Positions 11,147-57,382 of a stretch of 64,000 bases of DNA are shown one piece after another. The DNA lies in contig JAQUIJ010000003.1 of assembly GCA_028683385.1 (NCBI GenBank), forward strand, positions 62,001 to 126,000, in the 5' to 3' direction. The notes below the pieces were generated by a model, which ran no database searches, had not been told where the DNA came from, and worked only from the letters and a program-made list of their open reading frames with translations. Each line of letters starts with the position of its first letter. Position 1 is the stretch's first letter. The translations under genes and the position numbers were made by a program. Source of the stretch: Prolixibacteraceae bacterium (GTDB taxonomy: Bacteria > Bacteroidota > Bacteroidia > Bacteroidales > Prolixibacteraceae).

Positions 11147-12368
11147 CTTTAGGTTTACCAGTTATAAACAGGAATGCAGCGCCGGCCATCATCAGGAAAA
11201 TGCCTAAATAAACAATTGGTAGCCATGGGTCACGAACCAATTCTAAAACACTCAGATTCGACCATCGTCCCATTTCGGTATTGTAACTCAACTGGTAGAT
11301 GCTCCATCCATCGATATGGAATGGTCGGTTAACCTCAATAGTTGTAGTCACGTTTTTGCCGCTTGGGGTCTGTATATTCAGTTCAGAACTAAATTTGCGA
11401 GGTTCGGCAGGAAGCATCACCAGGGAATGATTTTCATTCAATTTCAGTGTTTCGGGTTGATTGACGTAGCTTCCGCTGTAAACCCAACCTGAAATTTCAG
11501 AACCATCTTTAGTCACCTTCACTTTGGCTGAAGGTGCCGAACCCGGTTCATTCAATGAGACATAACTATCGCCAACTTTTCCTGAAGACTCCAGAAACTG
11601 TTCCACTTCCAGATGATATCCGTAGATATCCAGCGTGTTTCGGTCGAGCAATTCAAAAGGATTTTTATTTTTATTGAGCACTATTTGCCCGGTCTTGTTG
11701 TCAATAATGGTCACTTTTGGCCGAAATTCATCGATGTTGAAATTCAGTAATTTGATCGTAACGGGCATTTCTACTGGTTTTCCTGAAGTATCAAGTGCAT
11801 TGTGCTCCGTTTCATTTTCGTAACAGTTCATTGTTACACGTTGAATGTCGCTGCTACCCAAGGCCGTTGATAACAGCACCAGAAACAAACCAAAATGATT
11901 GAGGAAGAACCCTGCATTTTTGTAGTTAAAAGGAGTTATCCGTTTCAAGGTGGTGATGCCCAACAAGATCATTAAATAAAGGTTGATCAGCATAAATGGC
12001 CAGGTTTTGACCAAATGCGTTAACCCGAAGGTGCGAACAAGTGCCGATTTCGGTTCCACATCCTGCTTGACAAATCCCATCAATAAAACCAAGAAAGTAA
12101 AACCCAGAATAGCAGGCAAAGCAGCCTTTACACCACCCAACCACTTCATTATCGGATGGTTCTTCCAACGGTAAAATGCTAAAACGAGTAAAAACAGAAA
12201 AATGAGTCCGGCGATCAGATTCCATGGGAAGCCGGCAATTCTCAATACAATGCCACCACTTGCAGTCTGAATGACAAAGCCAAGCAATAGAATTAAGCCA
12301 GTAACGATTGTTCCTTCCCGGTACGACCAATGATGTTTCTCTATCTTTCGGCTGGTTTCATTGCTCAT
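11121..12368 (-). CDS. ResB-like cytochrome c biogenesis protein
   Basis: Partner of CcsA in system II cytochrome c maturation. It has four membrane segments (roughly residues 20-40, 55-75, 90-105 and a C-terminal one near 395) and a large extracytoplasmic domain in between, as in ResB. The frame is open to 12425, but the ATG at 12368 (MSNETSRK) gives 415 aa without an odd N-terminal extension. It is the first gene of a two-gene minus-strand unit with ccsA. No cytochrome gene is nearby. Confidence 0.85.
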   Translation of the reverse strand: MSNETSRKIEKHHWSYREGTIVTGLILLLGFVIQTASGGIVLRIAGFPWNLIAGLIFLFLLVLAFYRWKNHPIMKWLGGVKAALPAILGFTFLVLLMGFVKQDVEPKSALVRTFGLTHLVKTWPFMLINLYLMILLGITTLKRITPFNYKNAGFFLNHFGLFLVLLSTALGSSDIQRVTMNCYENETEHNALDTSGKPVEMPVTIKLLNFNIDEFRPKVTIIDNKTGQIVLNKNKNPFELLDRNTLDIYGYHLEVEQFLESSGKVGDSYVSLNEPGSAPSAKVKVTKDGSEISGWVYSGSYVNQPETLKLNENHSLVMLPAEPRKFSSELNIQTPSGKNVTTTIEVNRPFHIDGWSIYQLSYNTEMGRWSNLSVLELVRDPWLPIVYLGIFLMMAGAAFLFITGKPKDGGTKHVA

Positions 12369-24407: not shown

Positions 24408-24520
24408 TTTGGTTATAAAGAAGAGTGGAGAGATCGGGCTCAGCGAAGCTCTGGCAACCATCGGCGAAAAAGTTGAAACGGTGCCAATACCCGGCCGGAA
24501 ACGGAATTATAATTTAAACA
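24408..24520 (+). promoter_or_regulatory. SAM-I (S-box) riboswitch
   Basis: The conserved S-box core is visible: AAGAGTGGAGAGAT at 24422-24435, then CTCTGGCAACC at 24450-24460, and GGTGCCAATACCCGGCC at 24481-24497, which corresponds to the GGUGCUAA..CC segment of the family. The P1 closing helix forms between 24408-24419 and 24508-24520 (GTTT with AAAC, TTATAA with TTATAA). It sits in the leader of the homocysteine genes at 24689. No intrinsic terminator follows, so the mode of control is unclear; 168 nt separate it from the first ATG. Confidence 0.87.
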
Positions 24521-46602: not shown

Positions 46603-46674
46603 GGTTTCATAGTTCAACGGATAGAATAGCGGTTTCCTAAACCGTAGATCCGGGTTCGATTCCCGGTGAGACTA
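46603..46674 (+). tRNA. tRNA-Arg (CCT), integration target
   Basis: Complete cloverleaf: GGTTTCA with TGAGACT (acceptor), an anticodon loop TTCCTAA giving anticodon CCT, T arm CCGGGTTCGATTCCCGG, discriminator A, CCA not encoded. Its last 16 bases are part of a 17-bp repeat found again at 56876, so the 3' end of this tRNA is the attachment site of the element that follows. Integration keeps the tRNA intact. Confidence 0.93.
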
Positions 46675-46871: not shown

Positions 46872-48131
46872 ATGATTTCACTTATCAGAGAACCCAATGG
46901 GTTTATTTATATGTACTGTCACCAAGGATTTAGGGATAACCCACTGAAGATTTCAACAAAAATTAAGGTAGAGGGGAATCTGTGGGATAAAACAACAAGA
47001 AGACCGACTGATAAAAAGTTGGTCTGGAAGGGTAAAAATGTAACCAACGAGCTAAATAGGCTTGCTGGTCTATTGGAGGATGCAATTGCGGAATGTGGAA
47101 GGGAAAATATAACCTCCGCAGATGATATTAAAAAGAAATTTGGTGACAAAGCGAAAATCGTATACAGCTTTGGACAGGTGGTTGTAATCGACTTTTTGAA
47201 GTATTTCGAAAATTACGTTGACAATTTAAAAGCAGAAGGGGATAAAAACTGGAAGTTCTACCAGACAAGTTTGAATATGCTGAAAGAATTTTTCGGAAAG
47301 AAAAAACCGTCCTTCCAAATGATTGATATGAGGTTCTACGGCAGCTTTAACAGTCATCTTAAAAGCAAAAAGCTGGCTGTAAATTCCATCAGCAATGTTT
47401 GGAAACATATAAAAGTGGTAATGAAACGAAGCCAAGAGGTCGATAAACTCCATACTAATAATGATTACACGCGATTTGAACGTCACAGGGAACAGACGGA
47501 TTCAATTTACCTCACCCTTGCCGAACTTGATGCTATTTTCAATGCCGAATTAATAGGTCATTTGGATAAAGCCCGGGATTATTTCATTGTGGGTGCGTTT
47601 ACTGGCCTTCGATTTGCCGATTGGGATAGAGTTTCAGCATCCGCAGTAAAGGACGGTGTCCTTAGCCTGAGGTCACAAAAAACTAATGAACTGAGCCACA
47701 TCCCAATTCATCACTACGTTCAGAAGATTCTGGATAAATACAATGGCACACTTCCTGAAAAACCATCGAATCAGAAAATGAACGCTTATGTCAAACTTGT
47801 TGCGGAGAAAGCTGAAATAAATGAAGAAGTTGAAATAAGAACCAGCCAGGGAGACGAAAGGGTTTTTGAAAAGTTTAAAAAGCATAAACTGGTCACAACA
47901 CACACGGCACGAAGGAGCCTTGCAACAAACCTTATTTTAAAAGGTGTTTCGCCTTATGTCATAATGAAGATCACAGGCCACAAACAGTTGGATTCTTTTG
48001 AAGCATATGTTCGACTTAAAGAATTAAATGCTTTAATTGAGCTGAAAGACCTCGATTTTTTCAAACCACCCAAGCCTCTTAAAGTTAAAAGGGAAAGGAA
48101 GAAGAAAGAAAAACAGGCTAAAGTTGATTAA
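46872..48131 (+). CDS. int: Tyrosine recombinase / integrase
   Basis: Site-specific recombinase of the element, 419 aa. An N-terminal arm-binding region and SAM-like core-binding domain (residues 100-200) precede the catalytic domain with Arg in TGLRFADW, HxxR in HTARRSLATN, GHK in ITGHKQLDSF and the Tyr in FEAYVRL. Start at the ATG at 46872. It is next to attL in the orientation usual for tRNA-targeting elements. The C-terminal tail is Lys-rich. Confidence 0.93.
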   Translation: MISLIREPNGFIYMYCHQGFRDNPLKISTKIKVEGNLWDKTTRRPTDKKLVWKGKNVTNELNRLAGLLEDAIAECGRENITSADDIKKKFGDKAKIVYSFGQVVVIDFLKYFENYVDNLKAEGDKNWKFYQTSLNMLKEFFGKKKPSFQMIDMRFYGSFNSHLKSKKLAVNSISNVWKHIKVVMKRSQEVDKLHTNNDYTRFERHREQTDSIYLTLAELDAIFNAELIGHLDKARDYFIVGAFTGLRFADWDRVSASAVKDGVLSLRSQKTNELSHIPIHHYVQKILDKYNGTLPEKPSNQKMNAYVKLVAEKAEINEEVEIRTSQGDERVFEKFKKHKLVTTHTARRSLATNLILKGVSPYVIMKITGHKQLDSFEAYVRLKELNALIELKDLDFFKPPKPLKVKRERKKKEKQAKVD

Positions 48132-54186: not shown

Positions 54187-54311
54187 AAGTAAAGCAGTCG
54201 TTAATATTTTATCTTGTCTCCGAATTATGCCATAAGCAATGTTTTATTTGACGTAAAAGTAAGAAAAGTAATCAGACATATAATGATAAATTGTATTTAG
54301 AACCATATTTA

Positions 54312-54776
54312 TTACATCAACCCTTCATCTGCAAAAGACATATATCCATCCCCAGGCAGCAAGATCAGATGGTCGAGCAACGGAATGTCAAGAGTCAGTC
54401 CGGCATCCTTTATCTTCCGGGTAATCGTTTTGTCTGTCTCGCTAGGTGTCTCATTTCCAGACGGATGGTTGTGTGCGACGATCACACTGCAAGCATTAGC
54501 CTTTAACCCGACCTGAAAAACGCATCTTACGTCCACAACTGTTCCACAGAGTCCTCCTTCAGCAACTTTGTGTATACCGAGGATTTTGTTGTTACGATTT
54601 AGATACATCGCGTAGAATGACTCTTTGTATTCCATTGATTGACTCCACAACTCCCGGAAGGCTTCTGCTGCCTCAAAAGAAGTCGTTACCTTTATCCTCT
54701 CTGATGGCTTAACGCTGGTGCTATATTTTACCTCGATTTCAGCCAATTTAAAGCATTTTGTTTCATTTATAATCAT
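54312..54776 (-). CDS. RadC-like JAB/MPN domain protein
   Basis: 154 aa from the ATG at 54776; a second ATG is 6 nt upstream. The later start is preferred because it places the leader stem 8 nt from ATG, as in the sister leaders. The JAB metal site is intact: AHNHPSGNETPSETD, with the Glu in the preceding strand. Such RadC-like proteins are frequent in Bacteroidota mobile elements; the function in DNA metabolism is not settled. Last gene of the operon. Confidence 0.88.
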   Translation of the reverse strand: MIINETKCFKLAEIEVKYSTSVKPSERIKVTTSFEAAEAFRELWSQSMEYKESFYAMYLNRNNKILGIHKVAEGGLCGTVVDVRCVFQVGLKANACSVIVAHNHPSGNETPSETDKTITRKIKDAGLTLDIPLLDHLILLPGDGYMSFADEGLM

Positions 54777-54824
54777 AATCATTGCCCGTTGATCCCGGGA
54801 CTTGTAATGGCCTGTATCAACGCC
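54777..54824 (-). promoter_or_regulatory. Two-hairpin leader E (radC)
   Basis: Minus strand: hairpin 1 GGC with GCC (10-nt loop GTTGATACAG), 9-nt linker, hairpin 2 CCCG-GGATCAA-CGGG, then 8 nt to ATG. The loops are complementary (TTGAT with ATCAA). Most divergent in sequence of five copies but same layout, which is what argues for conserved structure. Confidence 0.65.
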
Positions 54825-54879
54825 GATTTGACATTTAAAAATTTTATTAAAAGAGAAAAGAACCTTTCGGCTCTTCTCG

Positions 54880-55029
54880 TTACAAATCCGGATCAGCATC
54901 CGAATAAGATTCATCACCATGACCTGTTCCTCCTACATCTTCATCTTGATTGCAGTCATCGAAATCACGGTTATAGGATGAACAGATGGAGCAATTTCCA
55001 TCAGGTCTGATACAATTGTTTGAATTCAT
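54880..55029 (-). CDS. Small Cys-rich acidic protein (49 aa)
   Basis: A short gene found by its leader. The ATG at 55029 lies 8 nt after leader D, and the frame runs to TAA at 54880. The product begins MNSNNCIRPDGNCSICSSYN, has five Cys (two as CSIC) and a very acidic tail (DEDVGGTGHGDESYSDADPD). The function is unknown; the Cys pattern might bind a metal. It sits between radC and the 55083 gene in the same operon. Confidence 0.7.
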   Translation of the reverse strand: MNSNNCIRPDGNCSICSSYNRDFDDCNQDEDVGGTGHGDESYSDADPDL

Positions 55030-55075
55030 ATTTGTTGCTCATGCCTTTGAGACTCATTGTGGTATCTGGCACACC
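55030..55075 (-). promoter_or_regulatory. Two-hairpin leader D (49-aa gene)
   Basis: Minus strand: hairpin 1 GGT-GTGCCAGAT-ACC, linker ACAATGAGT, hairpin 2 CTCA-AAGGCA-TGAG, then CAACAAAT and ATG. Loop TGCC is complementary to loop GGCA. It fills the gap between the upstream stop and this start. Confidence 0.72.
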
Positions 55076-55082
55076 TGTTTAA

Positions 55083-55280
55083 TTAGAAAAAGATAAGTTC
55101 AGGGTAATTGTGTTCCTGCATTTTAGGCATCTTGCGGTACAACTCGTTGTAACATTCACCAAGTTCCAACAAATGAGGATGCTCACTTATACCGTTTTCA
55201 TCCAAGTAGGGACCTAAAACCCAAAGTATGGCATCCATTAACCTTTGGTATTCCTCCATCGACAATTCAACTAAATCCAT
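55083..55280 (-). CDS. Small hypothetical protein
   Basis: 65 aa from the ATG at 55280 (MDLVELSMEEYQRL); the frame track begins 6 nt earlier at a TTG. Acidic and helical, not recognised. It begins 2 nt after the stop of the upstream gene and, unlike the other genes of the operon, has no two-hairpin leader, so it is translated by coupling to 55283-55711. Confidence 0.55.
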   Translation of the reverse strand: MDLVELSMEEYQRLMDAILWVLGPYLDENGISEHPHLLELGECYNELYRKMPKMQEHNYPELIFF

Positions 55281-55282
55281 GA

Positions 55283-55711
55283 TCAATCCTCCTGAGGTTT
55301 CATAATGAAAATAGCTGGTGACGGATCGTCAAAGTCCTGTGCTTGTATCACTGCTTTTAAGGTTATAGTTCTTATCATCCTATCTCCGTCCATTCTTTCA
55401 TTCTGTTCCCAATCGCCTTTATCAGCTAAACGACAGTTGAATTTGAACATCATTAATGAACTGGAATTCGTTTTAGCAGCCCACATGAACATCCATAAAA
55501 TGTCCCATAAACGGCCTGATAAGTCTTGTTCTCCCTCCATTCCCTCAGGAACTTCAACGTACTTATCCCAAACTGATCGAGTCAAGTAAACTGGATATTT
55601 AATACCGGCTTCCTTTGATTGTCCATCAGCAACTCGAACTAAAAACCCATCTGCTACTGCTTCTTTGGTCGTGTAGGTTGAAATAATCTTCATGTCATTA
55701 AAATCTTCCAT
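55283..55711 (-). CDS. DUF6573-like plasmid/element protein
   Basis: 142 aa from the ATG at 55711, which lies 8 nt after leader C. The pattern ISTYTTKEAVADGFLVRVAD, then GIKYPVYLTRSVWDKYV and GRLWDILWM matches a family (DUF6573 by recollection) common on plasmids and integrative elements; function unknown. It is coupled to the 55083 gene downstream. Confidence 0.65.
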   Translation of the reverse strand: MEDFNDMKIISTYTTKEAVADGFLVRVADGQSKEAGIKYPVYLTRSVWDKYVEVPEGMEGEQDLSGRLWDILWMFMWAAKTNSSSLMMFKFNCRLADKGDWEQNERMDGDRMIRTITLKAVIQAQDFDDPSPAIFIMKPQED

Positions 55712-55758
55712 TAATTGCACCCATGCCTTTGGGATTTTGCTTTGGCTTCTGGCTCGCC
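55712..55758 (-). promoter_or_regulatory. Two-hairpin leader C (55711 gene)
   Basis: Minus strand: hairpin 1 GGC-GAGCCAGAA-GCC (extendable to TTGGC/GCCAA), linker AAAGCAAAAT, hairpin 2 CCCA-AAGGCA-TGGG, then TGCAATTA and ATG. Loops GCC and GGC are complementary. Confidence 0.72.
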
Positions 55759-55762
55759 AAGT

Positions 55763-56020
55763 TTAATGTTTAGAGAATGTATTAGATAGGATTTCCACAG
55801 GCCATCCATTTTTGTATTTTGATGTTTCCAAATCTTGTAAATCAAGTGCTTCAAATTCATCAAACCATTTGTGTAAATCAGTCATATTGACGTTGTAAGT
55901 TTTCTGGTCAAACTTTACATTAGCCGTTGTTAAATTATAAGGCGTTACAATTGCTAAAGTGTCTGCCGGAATTCTTGCACCTGATTTAAGTTTAAAATCA
56001 TTCACTGTGCGTATATCCAT
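55763..56020 (-). CDS. Small hypothetical protein
   Basis: 85 aa, starting at the ATG at 56020, 9 nt after leader B. It begins MDIRTVNDFKLKSGARIPAD and has a mostly beta N-half and helical C-half. Not recognised; similar short proteins accompany RadC- and DUF6573-like genes on Bacteroidota elements (recollection). The gene's end overlaps leader C. Confidence 0.55.
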   Translation of the reverse strand: MDIRTVNDFKLKSGARIPADTLAIVTPYNLTTANVKFDQKTYNVNMTDLHKWFDEFEALDLQDLETSKYKNGWPVEILSNTFSKH

Positions 56021-56067
56021 TTAATGTTACCGCTGCCTTGCGGATTTGATTTGGCATCAAGCTCGCC
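56021..56067 (-). promoter_or_regulatory. Two-hairpin leader B (56020 gene)
   Basis: Minus strand: hairpin 1 GGC-GAGCTTGAT-GCC, linker AAATCAAAT, hairpin 2 CCGC-AAGGCA-GCGG, then TAACATTAA and ATG. Loop GCTT pairs with AGGC (one G-T pair). Confidence 0.72.
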
Positions 56068-56076
56068 TGTAATTGA

Positions 56077-56556
56077 TTAGTTGAGTTGATTTGCTGTTGC
56101 TTTAGACTGGATGTTTTCATGTCCCCAGAAGTCACGTAATTCTTCCATGGAATGAATGTTCCCGGATTTTTTAGAGTATTCTCCAGCATGCCAGTACCAG
56201 GCGAGCTTTGGTGCTGAGAACATGAAGCCTTCTTCTTTTAAAATCGACTTTACTGCATAAGTGCTTCCAGTTATCCAGATCCATGATCCAATAAGTTCGA
56301 TGGTAATGTTCGGCAGATAAATGATCTTCTCGATCTTCTGCCGCAATTCTTCGGAGATGTGATGCTCTTGTTCTTTACGTTCGTCAGTAAAGTACTCATT
56401 GGTGTTGATCAGATTCTTTGAAAGCCTTTCATACTGATTGTTGATCTCCTTCATGATCTCTGTGTCACCTCCACGATCAGGATGATGCAGAAATGCTAAG
56501 TTCCGATACTGTTTGCGCAACTCGTCCAAGGTTTTGATACCTTCAAAATAGTTCAT
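56077..56556 (-). CDS. DnaJ-domain protein
   Basis: 159 aa. An N-terminal J domain, with the HPD motif in FLHHPDRGGDTEIMK near residues 24-38, is followed by a separate C-terminal domain (WIWITGSTYAVKSILKEEGF). J-domain proteins recruit Hsp70; copies of this type are carried on Bacteroidota mobile elements. It is the first gene of the operon with leader A directly upstream. Confidence 0.8.
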   Translation of the reverse strand: MNYFEGIKTLDELRKQYRNLAFLHHPDRGGDTEIMKEINNQYERLSKNLINTNEYFTDERKEQEHHISEELRQKIEKIIYLPNITIELIGSWIWITGSTYAVKSILKEEGFMFSAPKLAWYWHAGEYSKKSGNIHSMEELRDFWGHENIQSKATANQLN

Positions 56557-56602
56557 TTATGTTACTACTGCCCTGTAGCTTTTTATTGGTTTCTGGCACA
56601 CC
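56557..56602 (-). promoter_or_regulatory. Two-hairpin leader A (DnaJ-like gene)
   Basis: Minus strand: hairpin 1 GGT-GTGCCAGAA-ACC, linker AATAAAAAG, hairpin 2 CTAC-AGGGCA-GTAG, then TAACATAA and ATG. Loops TGCC and GGCA are complementary. The promoter of the operon must lie to the right (56603-56800), which shows no gene; no clear box was identified. Confidence 0.72.
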
Positions 56603-56799
56603 GATTTGAATTGATTAATCCAGGCTTGGTTACCTGCTTCAAATTGGTGGGAGTATGGTATGATGTCGGAGTATAAAATGAATAAATCAGGAGAAAAATC
56701 CGTAACTTCGGGGTAAGATTTGTTGGTGTGATTTTGCTTAATTTGTAAGTTCGCAACAAGGTGAGTTCAGTAAAACATGCGATTAAAGTATATTAATGA

Positions 56800-56867
56800 C
56801 CTACCAAATACCTACCAAATAAAAATTTAGTGTTTTGTATATAGCTGATATTCAATACTTATCAACA
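56800..56867. promoter_or_regulatory. Right candidate integrase arm sites
   Basis: CCTACCAAAT at 56800 and 56811 in direct orientation relative to 46791, plus GTATATAGCTGA (56837) and CTTATCAACA (56858) inverted relative to the left end. Confidence 0.55.
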
Positions 56868-56875
56868 GGTAAAAT

Positions 56876-56892
56876 ATTCCCGGTGAGACTAC
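56876..56892 (+). repeat. attR: 17-bp direct repeat
   Basis: ATTCCCGGTGAGACTAC, identical to attL at 46659, marking the right end of the element. Confidence 0.92.
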
Positions 56893-56915
56893 AAAAAGAG
56901 ATATCACAATAAATT

Positions 56916-56957
56916 AAAAGCACTTAAATTCAATGATTTAAGTGCTTTTTTATTTTT
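56916..56957 (+). terminator. Displaced native terminator of tRNA-Arg
   Basis: AAAAGCACTTAAAT pairs perfectly with ATTTAAGTGCTTTT (14 bp) and is followed by Ts. It lies 24 nt after attR, where the terminator of tRNA-Arg would be before the element integrated. The remaining 56958-57382 contains a short relic-like frame (57118-57276) and no gene I can name. Confidence 0.85.
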
Positions 56958-57382
56958 GTAAAGTATCAAAAAATGCACTATAAATCTACCCCCAAAGGTC
57001 TAAATCGAGACCTATCCGGGAAAGTGGACTAAAGGTCTCGCCTGTTGCTGTAACTTTCTGAAATTCAATCTATAATGTATTAAATTGGTTCATTTTAGTG
57101 CTTCTGTCAGTTTTTAGGTAAGAAATATCACACCCAGAGTTCAATGGAAAGCTTACGATGGCGATTTTCTATGGGCTCCAAAGGTTGTATCACTCTCTCC
57201 GGACGAAAGTGGCTTTTCAGATCTTCATCCTTTTAGGATTAGTTATCTTAAAGGTAATATATCCCAAAAATGTTGATGGCTTTTCTTTTCTGCCAACTCT
57301 GCCTGGATTATTGAACTAATAGGAAAAGCAAGAACTCCTTCATATATTTACTTTTGATATACCTACAATTATAAAATAGAGA

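Follow-up and report, generated by a model that had tools for sequence, protein, structure and literature searches.

How are start codons chosen in Bacteroidota without Shine-Dalgarno (SD) pairing, an unsettled matter on which a fold anchored to the AUG and present in up to dozens of copies per genome gives a direct handle? The question is raised by an operon in a 64,000-nucleotide (nt) stretch of a Prolixibacteraceae bacterium genome (GCA_028683385.1, contig JAQUIJ010000003.1, positions 62,001 to 126,000; hereafter the window), where six genes lie on the minus strand between 56604 and 54312, five of them preceded by a short two-hairpin leader. Comparison with related sequences identifies the leader as a new family of cis-acting mRNA elements tied to the start codons of selected mobile genes, and one that probably affects how translation starts.

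An earlier note, made from the letters of the window alone, had described the five leaders, and their stems and complementary loops are all present as described, with scores of 30.2-58.5 bits under the covariance model introduced below. Each leader consists of a first stem (P1) of 3 base pairs (bp) closing a loop of mostly 9 nt, an A-rich linker, and a second stem (P2) of 4 bp closing a 6-nt loop. The four pairs of hairpin 2 hold in every copy, as the note had them, but a fifth pair beyond a bulged nucleotide had been overlooked. The complements between loops 1 and 2 were likewise read correctly, except that the one in copy 2 (GCUU/AGGC) contains a G-U.

Scanning for the literal layout brought up the same core at other loci, and a pattern built from it had 15 matches in the genome that contains the window, while the reversed pattern had none. 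The covariance model, R1, was built from 45 aligned cores and comprises P1, P2 and one extra pair, with no start codon. Because all five window leaders are among the 45 training sequences, their R1 matches alone are not independent evidence. The own genome holds 36 R1 copies at E ≤ 2e-5 in eight clusters on six contigs, the 37th match having E 0.1, and the best match in the 64 kb apart from the five leaders has E 0.15. Of 23 genomes from the genus, 18 have R1 matches, as do 22 of 295 sampled genomes of the order (own genome included in both counts; two of the 22 are weak, at 24.1 and 27.7 bits), the order being read as Bacteroidales from the named carriers. The exact core pattern, which misses variants, matched one of 395 genomes in a class sample, namely the own one. 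A phylum-wide spread was rejected: under stricter filters, 29 genomes besides the own one in a phylum sample of 395 gave matches at E ≤ 0.01, at 20.3-26.8 bits, with an ATG at 8-10 nt in a single case and with several repeating one apparent coding stretch, and these appear chance-like.

Covariation was assessed on 209 distinct 44-nt cores from 352 hits, the rest being duplicates or of other lengths, with a test of our own modelled on R-scape that used 100 tree-based null alignments. E was 0 for each of three pairs in P2 and for the fifth pair beyond the bulge, the latter being G-C in 117 cores, A-U in 84, G-U in three and otherwise composed in five. The varying P1 pair gave E 0.06 or 0.02 depending on the type of null. 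A lack of further homologues with covarying stems, or of significant pairs, had been named beforehand in the note as grounds for abandoning the idea; homologues were found, and their hairpin 2 covaries significantly.

The loop-loop contact suggested in the note draws its strength from compensated changes. Wherever a T follows GCC or GCT in loop 1 it meets an A in loop 2 (11 of 11, with 162 of 176 leaders scorable; p 3e-8, uncorrected for relatedness). A scan neutral to the loop letters gave 265 hits, 221 canonical and 44 non-canonical, and recovered three members with a wholly different loop 1, all of which have a matching loop 2: TTGAT/ATCAA in window copy 5, TGGT/ACCA in locus L235, where the leader precedes a radC 78% identical to that of the window, and GTT/AAC in L334. 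Since the contact survives three complete swaps, it seems to be the fold rather than the loop letters that is kept. At least three complementary loop bases occur in 37 of the 44 non-canonical hits, among them L286, whose loop 2 (AGCGCA) breaks a usual kissing pair; the other seven have none, and we read them as three chance hits, three one-wobble variants and one misregistered insert form. A search for loop-swapped copies at 1321 other open reading frame (ORF) starts returned 17 hits, all of them known copies or chance-like. Judged on these sequences, the kissing contact is well supported, though not statistically proven, and the note's suggestion stands to that extent.

Loop 1 takes three forms: the usual one, a short one (at most 20 of 292 leaders by core length), and one with an inserted third hairpin (29 of 292, about one in ten) whose stem letters vary while pairing is kept, as judged by eye. 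This insertion spans about 20-24 nt (for example L214:6570-6636 and L229:5240-5306, with 27 more), and two further leaders have a larger insert containing a GCCTG...CAGGC palindrome. Several unpaired positions are nearly invariant, namely the G at the start of loop 1, an A-G-A and the A's of loop 2. Such positions within a compact kissing fold are reminiscent of small aptamers, as would suit a riboswitch in which a small molecule bound between the hairpins governs access to the start codon. We consider this improbable, given that the loop letters are replaceable, that up to eight or nine leaders occur in one 12-17 kb stretch, that the genes served are DNA-handling accessory genes rather than a metabolic pathway, and that the start region shows no sign of being hidden, its predicted pairing from -5 to +9 not exceeding that of other genes from these loci (150 in each set).

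The position of the leader is as conserved as the note had claimed for the window, where P2 lies 8, 9, 8, 8 and 8 nt from the ATG. Among 292 distinct leaders whose flanks were available, drawn from 126 loci, the distance is 8 nt in 102, 9 nt in 143 and 10 nt in 25 (270 at 8-10 nt, 245 at 8 or 9). The ATG lies elsewhere in 14, including window copy 5, which has an additional in-frame ATG 2 nt after stem 2 and is counted at this first ATG, and eight have no ATG-initiated ORF in reach. In an earlier set, a qualifying ATG stood within 30 nt of 170 of 176 leaders, compared with 889 of 3520 random same-strand positions. A conserved, covarying fold and a fixed place ahead of start codons, the marks of a cis-acting structured translation leader, are thus both found here. 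The spacer is rich in A (each position from -7 to -1 is G in 4 to 26 of 270 copies), and no complement to the anti-SD was present 5-9 nt ahead of the ATG. Loop 2 (AAGG/AGGG) was discarded as an SD-like sequence; it lies about 13-18 nt ahead of the ATG and is replaced in the swapped copies. A possible likeness of loop 1 to the 530 loop of 16S rRNA was set aside, being compatible with chance by a hand estimate.

We infer that the leader acts at translation initiation, whether as enhancer or as brake being a guess. A function at the start site suits the data better than control at the transcript level, because a single operon can contain several genes that each carry a separate leader. Our favoured reading, held at somewhat short of even chances, is a docking element that brings the 30S subunit to the place to which SD pairing would bring it. 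The kissing contact and the A-rich linker would lock the two hairpins into one compact body, which would occupy the 30S subunit's mRNA exit side, roughly at the site of an SD helix, and hold the AUG at the P site; selected genes would thereby gain independent, probably strong initiation in hosts that use little SD pairing. The enhancing sign and the ribosomal contact are guesses. We prefer docking because the spacing is tight ahead of unrelated genes while the spacer letters drift, which points to geometry relative to the ribosome, and because the phylum is said to lack SD sequences (PMC6847099, in excerpt). The same excerpt reports that A at -3 and -6 favours initiation in Flavobacterium johnsoniae.

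Several observations weigh against this picture. No kissing pair covaries significantly in the 209 cores (best E 9.5), because the three inner pairs hardly vary and the outer two are present in just 101 and 11 cores, and single copies break an inner kissing pair. R1 was trained on pattern-selected cores, so that canonical loops are over-represented, and the copies are related rather than independent. Structure near a start codon usually lowers initiation (PMC6847099, in excerpt). The same stretches contain 116 mechanically called ORFs that lie between leader genes and lack a leader; ordinary gaps of 26-150 nt precede 30 of these, so the leader is not a general start signal. Finally, five near-identical phage contigs carry an orphan leader copy that has no ORF and is followed by a terminator; it is possibly a decoy RNA or a remnant. 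The note had linked the absence of a leader to a start 2 nt after the upstream stop, which is true of the gene at 55083-55280 but is no rule elsewhere, given the 30 ordinary gaps, even though 40 of the 116 leaderless ORFs begin within 25 nt of an upstream stop, compared with four of 101 with a leader. The orphan copies were seen in L039, L041, L064, L071 and L083, where an intrinsic-terminator-like hairpin follows at once and a gene that by eye is helicase-like lies upstream.

Which genes carry the leader bears on a second explanation. Counted over ORFs that were called mechanically, in loci selected because they contain leaders, it precedes 21 of 23 members of a family of about 120-150 amino acids (aa) without assigned function, 18 of 20 short RadC, 15 of 16 DUF6573, 13 of 14 DnaJ-like, 13 of 14 ArdC and eight of 14 zinc-ribbon-like genes, as well as small unknowns, whereas in the same cassettes it precedes two of 17 N6-methylases and no member (0 of 15) of a 102-aa family. 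In 30 fetched radC loci the leader lies directly upstream of 18 of 21 short frames, one of the three exceptions being at a contig start, and of none of nine long-type frames (231-275 aa), which are taken to be chromosomal. Selective use of one fold would be expected of a translational operator, at which a host or element protein or a small RNA (sRNA) binds the kissing fold beside the AUG and switches the gene set off or on together; the 36 copies in eight clusters of one genome would then form a regulon, and the orphan copies with their terminator could be decoys. The narrow 8-9 nt spacing exceeds what an operator needs, and a partial search yielded no regulator: a Pfam scan of 74 ORFs in ten element loci, in which 25 of its 58 families were seen, gave none, and the 102-aa family has no Pfam, PHROG or convincing PDB match. 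We regard the operator as nearly as likely as docking. Both readings could be true, a trans-acting factor being also favoured by the selective use and by the orphan copy with terminator in five phage contigs; should there be such a factor, gene transfer would have a new regulator at the post-transcriptional level.

The 102-aa protein (L059:4513-4821 and 14 relatives) was itself considered as an RNA binder and set aside, with a mean AlphaFold pLDDT (predicted local distance difference test) of 66 and no PDB match at E ≤ 0.001. In seven of 11 aligned members a Lys-rich stretch leads into a terminal DDLPF, an ending that we take to resemble the tip of single-stranded-DNA-binding proteins.

The carriers are mobile DNA mainly of one order. 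Scanning named genomes gave at least 114 stretches, with 80 loci among the matches listed, and the leader is present in 74 of these (counting the best 150 of 151 model matches). The six without a model match look like chance pattern matches; four belong to other phyla (Frigoribacterium, Variovorax, Neobacillus, Pseudomonas), and the other two are a Flaviaesturariibacter and a Bacteroidales metagenome-assembled genome (MAG). Carriers among the listed matches include Sunxiuqinia, Mangrovibacterium, MAGs titled Prolixibacteraceae, Bacteroides stercorirosoris, Bacteroides sp. 519 and a Prevotella MAG, while many are titled only Bacteroidetes or Bacteroidia. Good matches on MAG contigs labelled Nomurabacteria (L317) and Chitinophaga (L320) may reflect misbinning; should they be correctly placed, the leader has a wider host range. 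A model match is present in 53 of 81 loci from viral contigs (78 fetched by pattern, three by protein), the remainder looking like chance pattern matches. In annotated phage records one leader-bearing family had no relative and a Bacteroides locus had a single short match, and relatives of DUF6573 occur on 149 plasmid records (protein relatives only).

Leader loci also encode a relaxase, TraG, DUF4134, RteC, PcfK and PcfJ, and elsewhere a portal-like protein; hence both conjugative elements and phages appear to use the leader. Its sequence alone flags mostly uncharacterized genes common to conjugative elements and phage-like contigs. The proximity of some loci to relaxase and tra genes, and the resemblance of the led genes to entry-region genes (anti-restriction ArdC, RadC, RecT), raise the alternative of a DNA element, a single-stranded (ss) DNA promoter or protein site used at conjugative entry in single- or double-stranded form rather than as RNA; ssDNA promoters are mentioned in the leading-region literature (PMC11541004). 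The fixed distance to the ATG and the same-strand orientation argue for RNA instead, stems of 3-5 bp are weak as DNA, and G-U exceeds A-C in paired columns (28 versus 10, though the model leans to G-U), which makes a DNA element very unlikely.

The note had known of no named RNA family with this form, and Rfam 15 agrees: it gave no leader match in the window at gathering score, in 54200-57000 at E ≤ 10, or in nine leader-rich loci at gathering score. The guanidine-II (mini-ykkC) riboswitch also has two hairpins with interacting loops, and the T4 gene 32 operator places a pseudoknot close to where a DNA-handling gene begins; both differ from the leaders, at which neither has an Rfam match. A 2017 survey reportedly covers 224 motifs. 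The leader is described nowhere in the literature searched, including excerpts of PMC2864571, PMC8040213 and PMC6847099, the supplements and the 2017 survey lying outside that search. The GUCCY-hairpin of the 2010 survey, which has no Rfam number in its table, lay outside the comparison, and an earlier listing is possible. In the excerpted 2010 survey (Weinberg 2010, PMC2864571), the radC RNA motif is likewise a structured leader named after radC and is marked in a table as probably cis-regulatory, but is listed for Proteobacteria, unlike the leaders here; RF01754 (149 positions) had no match in the whole genome at E ≤ 10. The STAXI motif of the same survey is likewise found close to genes for antirestriction, SSB and integrase, as a pseudoknot unit that is repeated, but its units are in tandem, are listed for Enterobacteriales and are not described there as one per start codon, and it has no Rfam match at the leaders. 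The Kozak-like start context of Bacteroidota is A-rich like the leader spacer (PMC6847099, in excerpt) but is a sequence preference, whereas the leader is a folded module. What is new is a kissing-loop build, anchored to the AUG, with one copy per gene, on mobile DNA mainly of one order.

The position of the leader would fit a bacterial element like an internal ribosome entry site (IRES), which recruits the 30S subunit by structure. In its fullest form, a native module of kissing hairpins would dock on the 30S subunit and replace the SD helix, one per gene on conjugative elements and phages of Bacteroidales, so that establishment genes are translated at once in new hosts; we hold this fuller proposal to be doubtful. 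Recruiting ribosomes by structure alone, if true, would to our knowledge be categorically new in bacteria. The intergenic region IRES of dicistroviruses, active in Escherichia coli, is likewise a tertiary-folded RNA able to start translation, but it is a triple pseudoknot of a eukaryotic virus and its bacterial activity is reported to be mediated by protein S1 (PMC9458429, in excerpt). Tests are practical because the leader occurs in a cultured strain, B. stercorirosoris DSM 26884.

The features of the window are collected in Table 1. The tyrosine integrase gene beside a tRNA gene is taken to mark a mobile element whose far part holds the operon.

Table 1 Leaders, operon genes and integrase gene in the window, with stems and loops given on the strand stated
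Feature	Position	Strand	Details
Leader 1, ahead of DnaJ-like gene	56557..56604	-	R1 match 56561-56604, 56.8 bits
Leader 1, P1	56602-56600/56590-56588	-	loop 1 56599-56591; linker 56587-56579
Leader 1, P2	56578-56575/56568-56565	-	loop 2 56574-56569; 8-nt spacer to ATG 56556
DnaJ-domain-like protein gene	56077..56556	-	Pfam PF00226, E 9.8e-7
Leader 2, ahead of 85-aa gene	56021..56069	-	R1 match 56026-56069, 55.2 bits; loops GAGCTTGAT/AAGGCA; 9-nt spacer
85-aa protein gene	55763..56020	-	no Pfam match at E ≤ 1
Leader 3, ahead of DUF6573 gene	55712..55760	-	R1 match 55716-55760, 50.1 bits; P1 extendable TTGGC/GCCAA; linker longer by one A; 8-nt spacer
DUF6573 protein gene	55283..55711	-	PF20213, E 2.4e-18
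65-aa protein gene without leader	55083..55280	-	start 2 nt past upstream stop
Leader 4, ahead of 49-aa gene	55030..55077	-	R1 match 55034-55077, 58.5 bits; loops GTGCCAGAT/AAGGCA; 8-nt spacer
49-aa protein gene	54880..55029	-	no Pfam match at E ≤ 1
Leader 5, ahead of radC	54777..54826	-	R1 match 54781-54826, 30.2 bits; loops diverged, GTTGATACAG/GGATCAA, 5-bp complementarity kept; 8-nt spacer to ATG 54776
RadC-like JAB protein gene, short mobile type	54312..54776	-	PF04002, E 1.2e-35 over 54312-54767
Tyrosine integrase gene	46872..48131	+	adjoins tRNA gene 46603-46674

Other elements were seen near leaders or elsewhere in the window. An AbiE type IV toxin-antitoxin pair lies beside leader cassettes at six loci (L214:395-2016 and relatives, the Pfam name coming from L214). 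Two known RNAs occur in leader-bearing loci but away from the leader positions, Flavo-1 at L227:8552-8637 and 11504-11589, and DUF805b at L059:3504-3537. The terminator-like hairpin at window 56905-56958 (AAGCACTTAAAT...ATTTAAGTGCTT), which lies upstream of the operon, underlies a weak match to the Bacteroides sRNA BTnc005 (27.4 bits; gathering score 174.8). A SAM-I riboswitch lies at window 24410-24515, ahead of genes that by eye resemble those of methionine synthesis.

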